From assembly GCA_958296445.1 (NCBI GenBank), contig OY282565.1, positions 3,211,570 through 3,275,569 on the forward strand: a stretch of DNA of 64,000 nucleotides, given 5' to 3'. The notes under the pieces were generated by a model that saw only the letters and a program-made list of their open reading frames with translations, made no database searches and was not told the DNA's origin. Position numbers and translations under genes: made by a program. Shown here one piece after another: positions 1-8,031 of the stretch (positions within the stretch are counted from its first letter, which is position 1; the number at the start of each line of letters is the position of its first letter). The DNA comes from an uncultured Dehalococcoidia bacterium (GTDB lineage: Bacteria > Chloroflexota > Dehalococcoidia > Lucifugimonadales > UBA3495).

Positions 1-767
1 GAAGCCTGTAGCAGCGGCTCCGGCTCGGCGGCGTCGGCGAATTCCTCCAGCACCGGGCCCCTTTCCGCGTCCAGCAGGTCAAGGGCGGCCTTTAGCACCT
101 GATGCTGCAACAGCGGGTCGCCGGCCTGGCCCAGGGCGTTGCCGAAGGCGTAGGGAACCCACAGCATTCGGGGGGGCTTGGTGCGCTCGGCGTGTTCCTT
201 GACCAGCACGATGCCGGTGGCGCTGATACCGGCTTCCTCGAAACACCGCGCCAGCACGCTGACCGCGTGCGAGCAGAGGGGTCAAGTGGGGGTTAGAAAC
301 GCGACTTCCACGCCCTCGTCCAGCATCCGCCGCGCCACCTCGGGCCCGGTTTCCGCCGCCGCCCGGGAGGCGTCCCGCAATGCGCCCATAAAGGAGTAGT
401 TGTTGTCGGCGAGCGAGCCAATGACTCCCTGCTCCCGCAGTTCCTCCATCCGGTCAATGGGGAAAGTGACGTTGATGTCGCGGTAAATGCTGGTGTGATC
501 GAACCCGATGCTGACGTGGCTCTGGATGATGTCCGCCGCCGGGGTGCCGCGCGGTATGACGCGATAGGAATTGTCGCCGCCGCTCTGGTGGTCGGTGATG
601 AAGGGCCGGTCGCCGCGCCGGTGCAGCCCGGCCGAGGTCACCAGCGCCACCCGGCTATCGGCCAGGGGCTTGCGCATTGGCGCCCACGGGGTATCGTCGT
701 GTTCCATACACGGGAACATTTGCAGCATCCGCCGCTGCACTTCGCTAAGGGTGTCAAGCCTGGGCAT
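1..767 (-). CDS. GrdB-like selenoprotein candidate, read through an in-frame TGA; 3' end off the window
   Basis: The product resembles the short proteins related to selenoprotein B of glycine/betaine/sarcosine reductase. Conserved-looking stretches are WAPMRKPLADSRVALVTSAG near the N-terminus and FDHTSIYRDINVTFPIDRM in the middle. The frame meets TGA at 284-282 (codon 162 from the ATG at 767) directly before Pro-Leu-Cys, giving a UxxC redox motif. It then stays open without another stop to the window edge, and the continuation (GISATGIVLVKEH, KPPRMLWVPYAFGNALG) looks like the normal C-terminal half of the family. A GTG at 773 is also possible, but the AGGTG before ATG 767 fits that start better. 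A conventional caller would end the gene at 282. The physiological reaction of the short family members is not known to me. No sel genes are in the window. Confidence 0.8.
254..270 (-). promoter_or_regulatory. SECIS-like hairpin just after the in-frame TGA
   Basis: On the minus strand, GCACGC (270-265) pairs perfectly with GCGUGC (259-254) around the loop GGUCA (264-260). The loop begins 18 nt after the UGA, within the usual bacterial SECIS spacing. It carries GGUC, as in the apical loop of the E. coli fdhF element recognised by SelB. The hairpin lies inside the coding sequence, as bacterial SECIS elements do. Function is inferred from position, stem and loop only. Confidence 0.62.
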
Positions 768-803
768 ATTCACACCTGCCGGTTATGGATTTAGGGGTCG
801 CCA

Positions 804-1523
804 TCAGGTTTGGCCGCGATGCGGCTCCGCTTGCGCCCTTGAATTGTAGAACCCGTCTATCATTTGGTCTACGTGTTCCGAAAGATCGGGGGATACCCCT
901 TGCCGAAGGGAGTCTAGGATTACAGTGACGCCCTCGCGCCTTGCCAGCCTTGCCGCAGGCACGAAATCGCTGTCCCCGGATACCAGAACGATGATGCTGA
1001 CAAATTTTTTGAGAGTCAGCGACGCTATGTCGAGGCCAATACGCATATCAACCCCTTTCTGGAGTAAATTTGCAGTAAAATCCTCGTCTTTCAAGTCGGA
1101 TACCGCAATATCTCCTTTCAGCAAACGATTTTGGACGTCCGCCTTTAGAATCCAGCCGGAATCCCCCGGTCTTACTACTTCTCCCAGTCGTAGAGCGAAA
1201 TCGGGCTGGTTGCGCAAGAGGGATAAAAGTTTGTTGCGAAATAATGCCATATCCGATTTGGCATAGTCTATTGACCTATTGCTGACCGGCAGATGCGCCT
1301 TTTTAGCGTAAGGCGGGGCGTCGTAGAAAAAGCATCGGTACAGCAGTTGGGCAGGATTGGGATAGCGGTATACTTCGTTGATTTGCCTGAGATGCCCGTC
1401 AACCAGTTGCCGCATTGACTCGGCCACCGCTTGCGGGTTCGAGACGTCCAAGTCGGGACGGACGCCCCTCAGCCTTTTCATATAAAACCCGCCATCCAAA
1501 AGGATGGCTACTTTAACGGCCAT
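804..1523 (-). CDS. NYN-domain (LabA/DUF88-like) putative ribonuclease
   Basis: The protein is about 239 residues and has the NYN/PIN-like fold signature. There is an N-terminal LLDGGFYMKR with the first acidic residue, a central GVDMRIGLD, and SGDSDFVPAA followed by an alternating strand/helix end. These acidic residues usually bind metal for RNA cleavage. The start is placed at the ATG at 1523 because GAGGTG lies just upstream; the longer frame to 1589 adds an unrelated hydrophobic tail. The gene is AT-richer than its neighbours and stands alone, suggesting an accessory gene. The RNA target is unknown. Confidence 0.8.
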   Translation of the reverse strand: MAVKVAILLDGGFYMKRLRGVRPDLDVSNPQAVAESMRQLVDGHLRQINEVYRYPNPAQLLYRCFFYDAPPYAKKAHLPVSNRSIDYAKSDMALFRNKLLSLLRNQPDFALRLGEVVRPGDSGWILKADVQNRLLKGDIAVSDLKDEDFTANLLQKGVDMRIGLDIASLTLKKFVSIIVLVSGDSDFVPAARLARREGVTVILDSLRQGVSPDLSEHVDQMIDGFYNSRAQAEPHRGQT

Positions 1524-1715
1524 TACGCACCTCACATTGACGATTAAGACAACAAAAAGCCCCAAGGGCTCGGCCGATCCCGTAATCACCAGCCTCGTAC
1601 TGTCGCTAGCTCTAGTTCAAGGCTGGGGGACACAGCTTACTGCCAAGGGGCGAATGTAGGCACTATGCTACCACCGCCAAGCCCGCTTGTCAAGGGGATT
1701 GGGCGAGGGGATTTT

Positions 1716-6577: not shown

Positions 6578-6931
6578 ATGGGCCTTTTCAGGGTTTCTTT
6601 ACAGGTGGGCAATCCGTTCACCGAACAATCGGAAACCGTGGAAGCAATGGTTGACACCGGCGCCGTTGATTCGATGATGCCGGCATCGCTGTTGCGGCGG
6701 CTGGGCGTCGCGCCGCTCAGGATGGTGCGCTTTCGCACGGCCAGCGGAGAGCGCGTCGAGTACGAGGTGGGCCGGGCGTACTTTTCCGCCGAGGGGGAAA
6801 GCTGCTTTGCCAACGTCGCATTCGGGCCGGAAGACACGCTGCTGATGGGCGCCACTACCCTGGGGCAGCTTTACATGGCAGTTGACCCGGTGAATCAAAG
6901 GCTGGTTCCTGTTGAGGGGCTGTTGCTATAG
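6578..6931 (+). CDS. Retropepsin-like clan AA aspartic protease, copy 1
   Basis: This protein of about 117 residues has the catalytic VDTGA followed by a flap-like region and the second signature LLMGATTLGQL, the usual monomer architecture of retropepsin-like single-domain proteases that work as dimers. The start at 6578 is supported by GAGGAG overlapping the stop of the preceding gene; the frame is open further upstream. It is the first of three paralogues sharing MGxFxVxLQVGxP, DTGA, MPxS and FGPEDxxLMGAT. No signal peptide or membrane anchor is seen. Substrate unknown. Confidence 0.83.
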   Translation: MGLFRVSLQVGNPFTEQSETVEAMVDTGAVDSMMPASLLRRLGVAPLRMVRFRTASGERVEYEVGRAYFSAEGESCFANVAFGPEDTLLMGATTLGQLYMAVDPVNQRLVPVEGLLL

Positions 6932-7162: not shown

Positions 7163-7259
7163 GGCGGGGGCGTAAAAGCGGCTCACTCCGGCCGGGGCAA
7201 GGGGTTATACTGTCGGGAAATGGGGGACTGGCGCGATGCGCCGCCCCGGAGGACTACGT

Positions 7260-7631
7260 ATGGGCAGCTTCCGCGTTCCGCTCCAAGTAGGGAAACCGGC
7301 TAACGGACATTCCGAAGGCGACAGCCCTACTGAAACGGTTATCGCCTTGGTTGACACCGGCGCCACTTTTTCGATGATACCGGCGTCCATACTGGGGCGT
7401 CTGGGCGTTGAGGCGGATGATACGGTTCTGTTCCGTATCGCCACCGCAGAAATCGTCGAATACCCCGTAGGAGAGGCGTCATTTTCGGCGGAAGGACGGC
7501 GGCGCCGGACTTCCCCGGTCATTTTCGGGCCGGAAAATCACTATATTATGGGGGCTATGGCTATGGAAAGCCTGCTATTGACCGTAGACCCCATAAATGA
7601 GTGCCTTGTCCCTTACATCAGTTATCTGTAA
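7260..7631 (+). CDS. Retropepsin-like clan AA aspartic protease, copy 2
   Basis: This copy has 123 residues. It carries VDTGATFSMIPASILGRLGV as the catalytic segment and YIMGAMAMESL as the second signature. Relative to the other two copies it has a short insertion near residue 20 (HSEGDSPTE). The start at 7260 is preceded by GGAGG. A 28-bp gap containing GGTTATAC and the low-complexity stretch of the 5' side separate it from the minisatellites. It is followed 43 bp later by copy 3. Confidence 0.83.
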   Translation: MGSFRVPLQVGKPANGHSEGDSPTETVIALVDTGATFSMIPASILGRLGVEADDTVLFRIATAEIVEYPVGEASFSAEGRRRRTSPVIFGPENHYIMGAMAMESLLLTVDPINECLVPYISYL

Positions 7632-7674: not shown

Positions 7675-8031
7675 ATGGGCGTTTTCAAGGTTTCGCTTCA
7701 GGTCGGTAATCCGTTCAGCCAGACTATTGAAACGGTGGATGCAATGGTGGACACCGGGGCCATATTTTCGGTGATGCCTTCCTCGATGTTGCGGGGTATG
7801 GGTATCGAGCCGGTTGAAAACATCACTTTTGGCTTAGCCAACGGCGAGGATGTGGAGTATCCAACCGGCTGGGCTTTATTTTCCGCTGAAGGCCGCCGCG
7901 GTATGGCCCGGGTTGTCTTTGGCCCGGAAGATCAATACCTTATGGGGGCTACGACTCTGGAAGATTTGTTGCTTATGGTGGATCCGGTACGGAACCGTCT
8001 TATCCATTTCGAGCGGCCCCCGTTGAGTTAG
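7675..8031 (+). CDS. Retropepsin-like clan AA aspartic protease, copy 3
   Basis: The product has 118 residues and is closer to copy 1 than to copy 2: SLQVGNPFSQTIETVDAMVD mirrors copy 1. It has VDTGAIFSVMPSSMLRGMGI and YLMGATTLEDL. The start at 7675 has GGAGG upstream; the track-open frame begins earlier but inside the previous gene. A second copy of the DTGA motif is absent, so activity would need a dimer, as in the family. The M16 peptidase gene follows after 82 bp. Confidence 0.83.
   Translation: MGVFKVSLQVGNPFSQTIETVDAMVDTGAIFSVMPSSMLRGMGIEPVENITFGLANGEDVEYPTGWALFSAEGRRGMARVVFGPEDQYLMGATTLEDLLLMVDPVRNRLIHFERPPLS

Follow-up and report, generated by a model that had tools for sequence, protein, structure and literature searches.

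The bacterium whose DNA was analysed here, a Dehalococcoidia-type member of the Chloroflexota, apparently carries a gene for a selenoprotein of 399 amino acids, which belongs to the PrdB/GrdB superfamily and would contain selenocysteine (Sec) at position 162, decoded with the help of a bacterial SECIS hairpin. The protein would use a Sec-Cys pair in catalysis, probably on a substrate that is neither D-proline nor glycine. We put the probability of this reading as a whole at about 0.96, and the recoding of the in-frame TGA as Sec is, judging from the sequences, close to certain. It is accepted because the TGA is conserved, the protein is constrained on both sides of it, TGA-less homologues have Cys at the site, and a covarying hairpin follows it. 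The whole stretch of 64,000 nucleotides that was analysed is referred to as the window, and positions are those of the window unless stated otherwise.

An open reading frame that continues past an in-frame TGA

The 5' part of the gene occupies positions 1-767 on the minus strand (codons 1-255), and the rest lies beyond the window edge at G000:C1:3211137-3211569, with TAG at its end; the whole gene is G000:C1:3211137-3212336. From the ATG at 767 (MPRLDTLSEVQRR...), 161 open codons lead to a TGA at codon 162 (282-284, minus strand). The TGA would encode the first residue of a UPLC (UxxC) redox motif, in the context TPTUPLCSHAV, and the partner residue of the motif, Cys165 (TGC, 273-275, minus strand), is invariant in a 27-row alignment. 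The first-pass annotation had recognized this motif, and both the motif and its coordinates proved right, with the gene cut by the window edge. It had also reported that the frame stays open for at least 93 codons past TGA 284-282. This is true up to the window edge, and the genome extends the frame to 237 codons, ending at the TAG outside the window. According to a calculation from base composition at 63% GC, 93 open codons have a chance of approximately 7%, which is only mildly unusual, and 237 open codons a chance of approximately 0.1%. Conservation of MPRL among the nearest homologues makes the ATG at 767 the likely start codon, with a GTG two codons upstream as a possible alternative.

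As had been anticipated at first pass, an ordinary gene caller truncates the gene. Standard gene calling splits the locus into a 163-aa ORF (282-773, minus strand) and a separate second ORF of 229 aa, and most homologues are likewise split into two ORFs. This outcome speaks for the view that the TGA is a real stop, be it in a pseudogene, between two genuine ORFs of 163 and 229 aa, or through a sequencing error. We regard that view as scarcely credible, given the single TGA at the same codon in distant homologues, the covarying hairpin tied to the TGA and the complete Sec machinery in the genome (all described below), and given the constraint on the protein on both sides of the TGA. In the two nearest pairs of sequences, pN/pS was 0.15-0.28 after the TGA and 0.27-0.28 before it, and purifying selection downstream of the TGA is similar to that upstream.

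Sec and Cys forms among the homologues

A search with the whole protein found homologues in 127 of the 393 genomes of the class, and nearly all class homologues among the matches listed have exactly one in-frame TGA. Among 99 genomes of close relatives, 62 gave a match, and 38 full-length orthologues with at least 52% identity (a count that takes in the gene of the window itself) all have one TGA. Even homologues with only approximately 35% identity have the single TGA at this codon. Sequences at 83% identity come from a genome of the same genus and from the public record Chloroflexi bacterium SB0662_bin_29, and an uncultured Dehalococcoidia record is 71% identical. A scan of genome contigs with short query patterns returned two very close relatives only, because it relies on short patterns of the query. 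The first-pass annotation had raised the possibility of a sequencing error at the TGA; this is excluded, since many independent genomes carry the same TGA, including the same-genus genome at 83% identity.

Matches without the TGA turn up at the phylum level. An alignment with Cys-containing homologues, proposed at first pass as a check on the recoding, gave a uniform result: all 18 TGA-less homologues examined have a Cys codon (TGC or TGT) at the equivalent position, in the motif CPLC, one of them having a TAA elsewhere in frame. These Cys forms mostly stop approximately 100 residues past the motif.

The genome also contains a second, distant PrdB-like gene (G000:C1:2621919-2622560; L026), which is 35% identical and has an in-frame TGA in the motif UPVC. 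Its TGA is followed, in the register described below for the gene of the window, by a hairpin of 7 bp (CCGGUCC UUG GGACUGG).

A covarying hairpin downstream of the TGA

A 6-bp hairpin was predicted from fold and covariation at 254-270 on the minus strand, its first base lying 14 nt beyond the T of the TGA. Its 5' arm is at 270-265 (GCACGC), its loop at 264-260 (GGUCA) and its 3' arm at 259-254 (GCGUGC). The TGA forms share one common register, with positions 14-19 paired with 25-30 (T of TGA = 0), and in 30 distinct sequences 94.4% of the hairpin cells are paired, while registers slid by one to three columns reached at most 65% pairing. Both sides have changed at four of the six pairs (C-G to G-C, G-C to A-U, C-G to U-A, and A-U to G-C). 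In the same 30 sequences, 36 double-changed cells were observed and 7.8 in shuffles; owing to the relatedness of the sequences, these counts are not of independent events. RNAalifold, run unaided, recovered the same helix minus its outermost pair. The folding energy after the TGA was no better than that of shuffled sequence (z 0.29), and as it is not significant, the hairpin rests on covariation.

In a larger set, at least five of the six pairs are kept in 73 of 75 distinct TGA sequences, nearly all of which have GU at loop positions two and three. The short forms retain the helix as well, despite having other amino acids in the hairpin stretch. In 16 distinct sequences of the Cys forms, two to four of the six pairs are kept, a loss that is also a lineage difference, as the Cys sequences form a group of their own. 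The helix is thus kept in TGA sequences, short forms included, and lost in Cys sequences, and the hairpin is therefore tied to the TGA. A bacterial SECIS has been described as a stem-loop just 3' of the UGA with a small apical loop containing G (PMC1088965, PMC9312934). The hairpin of the window fits this description with its 6-bp stem, its loop GGUCA and its compensatory changes, and at the level of predicted structure it is a bacterial SECIS. A search of the window against Rfam at gathering level gave no match.

Selenocysteine machinery of the genome

The genome holding the window (4.0 Mb, one contig) was searched for selA, selB, selC and selD, whose absence would have spoken against recoding according to the first-pass annotation, and all four are present. 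The tRNA-Sec gene scored 67.9 bits (cut-off 47) and has the anticodon TCA according to ARAGORN, and SelA, SelB and SelD were found with 536, 308 and 376 bits, respectively. A further tRNA-Sec match of 46.7 bits in the same genome is a tRNA-Ser according to ARAGORN. Among the 99 close-relative genomes, 88 have tRNA-Sec matches at or above the cut-off, some of which lie near the cut-off and are probably tRNA-Ser. The SelD gene itself encodes a selenoprotein, its in-frame TGA lying in the context SHCAGUAAKLS (G000:C1:1386245-1387165; L021:1393-2439, minus strand).

The first-pass proposal that the TGA is recoded as Sec is supported by the homologues, the machinery and the covarying hairpin together. 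In the mechanism we envisage, which builds on the machinery, the hairpin and the Sec/Cys exchange as read from sequence, the hairpin right after the UGA would recruit SelB carrying Sec-tRNA(Sec). SelD would supply the selenophosphate from which SelA makes this charged tRNA. The UGA would then be read as Sec at position 162, within UPLC; the actual insertion is what we infer. An in-frame TGA as such would also suit a changed genetic code or plain readthrough, with Trp, Gly or Cys inserted. We give this almost no weight, since TGA is the ordinary stop of 15 of the 45 likely genes of the window, the homologues have Cys at the site and not Trp or Gly, and tRNA-Sec, SelB and the SECIS are present. 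Taken as candidates in their own right, a pseudogene, a sequencing error and a changed code were rejected on the TGA/Cys comparison among homologues, the pN/pS values and the ordinary TGA stops.

Relationship to PrdB and GrdB

The protein had been called GrdB-like at first pass, a label that stands in so far as it matches Pfam PF07355 GRDB (47.5 bits, gathering cut-off 22; 2e-12) but that needs amending in favour of PrdB. The best NCBIfam model is TIGR04483 PrdB, with 148.5 bits over residues 27-232, compared with weak scores of 37-54 bits for the GrdF, GrdH and GrdB models. For the long group overall, too, PrdB is the best-matching family, and all 27 members match it. The GRDB match covers only the last part of the PF07355 model (positions 207-347). 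The protein thus resembles GrdB, GrdF and GrdH in the C-terminal part of the model, with UxxC at the site, but lacks the N-terminal half of GrdB, and no GrdA was found in its genome.

The likeness to PrdB extends over residues 27-232 and includes the UxxC motif with Sec, and both this motif and the best NCBIfam match would agree with a Sec-containing, true PrdB subunit of D-proline reductase working with PrdA. We consider such an enzyme improbable. The score of 148.5 bits is half of the curated equivalog cut-off of 300, the protein has about 135-160 extra C-terminal residues, no reductase operon adjoins the gene, and no PrdA match was found in the genome, though the control genomes gave none either. 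Similarly, GrdA had no match in the genome or in any control genome. The absence of PrdA and GrdA is only moderately strong, because the control genomes are silent too. Given the PrdB score below the cut-off, the protein is best described, from its sequence relationships, as a PrdB/GrdB-like homologue of both PrdB and GrdB rather than as an established D-proline or glycine reductase. By homology with PrdB and GrdB, the 399-aa selenoprotein is most likely a reductive enzyme whose catalytic selenol/thiol is the Sec-Cys pair. With neither PrdA nor GrdA found, and with an extra conserved region at the C-terminus of the protein, we infer that the substrate is probably neither D-proline nor glycine.

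Relatives of this kind have been reported from the sea. PrdB-family UxxC selenoproteins were reported to rank with the most abundant ones both in the Sargasso Sea data, where they numbered 42 sequences (PMC1088965), and in the Global Ocean Sampling (GOS) data, where 235 Sec and 110 Cys sequences with UxxC were assigned to pfam07355 (PMC2398784). Among bacterial selenoproteins, PrdB is one of the five that are most widespread (PMC9312934). The marine sequences share the Pfam family, the UxxC motif and the occurrence of Sec and Cys forms with the protein of the window, and they very likely belong to the same broad group. They are metagenome sequences, and the passages on PrdB in those two marine reports mention no C-terminal extension (PMC1088965, PMC2398784).

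The C-terminal region of the long form

Residues ~265-399 (~135 aa) are common to the long group, in whose alignment E272, G294, D340, E347, W364 and T369 are invariant. A Pfam search of this region at E 10 gave no match in the protein of the window and stray weak matches in others, and sequence and profile searches of the PDB found no related solved structure. Structure prediction from three sequences reached a pLDDT of 39, a model too poor to use. The selenoprotein family is already known from the sea, and only for the long Chloroflexota form with its extra C-terminal region did we find no description in the open-licence literature.

Gene neighbourhood

No gene neighbour is conserved across most of 23 loci, so the surroundings of the gene do not hint at a substrate. 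Genes for VOC and metallo-beta-lactamase proteins near the locus are held in common with the closest relative (L057).

Several other features of the surroundings were recorded. An NYN-domain gene (putative RNase; 804-1589, minus strand) lies directly upstream of the selenoprotein gene. Just downstream of it and outside the window, an imperfect inverted repeat of the type cgcagagtacgcagag ... ctctgcgtactctgcg (L002:11430-11560) sits between the selenoprotein gene and the next gene, for a VOC (glyoxalase-like) protein. A short tandem repeat of aaaatttaccggggcc, with approximately three copies at 2275-2325, lies immediately before a cobB-like gene; a cobO-like gene comes next. Further along, three adjoining small paralogues of the retropepsin-like aspartyl protease type (6599-6931, 7236-7631, and 7678-8031; plus strand) were assigned on the basis of Pfam Asp_protease_2 / gag-asp_proteas.

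Implications

Most annotation pipelines would present this selenoprotein gene, and its many Chloroflexota relatives, as two fragments. The use of Sec is widespread in these Chloroflexota bacteria, and the gene is a clear example of a SECIS that Sec forms retain and Cys forms lack. It is conceivable, at a little less than even odds in our estimate, that the long form represents a separate Chloroflexota selenoenzyme subfamily that combines a PrdB-like Sec domain with a conserved, previously undescribed C-terminal domain and acts on another substrate independently of PrdA/GrdA. If so, the long form would be a new selenium-dependent reductase, widely shared among Dehalococcoidia-type bacteria and, in some genomes, encoded in several copies.
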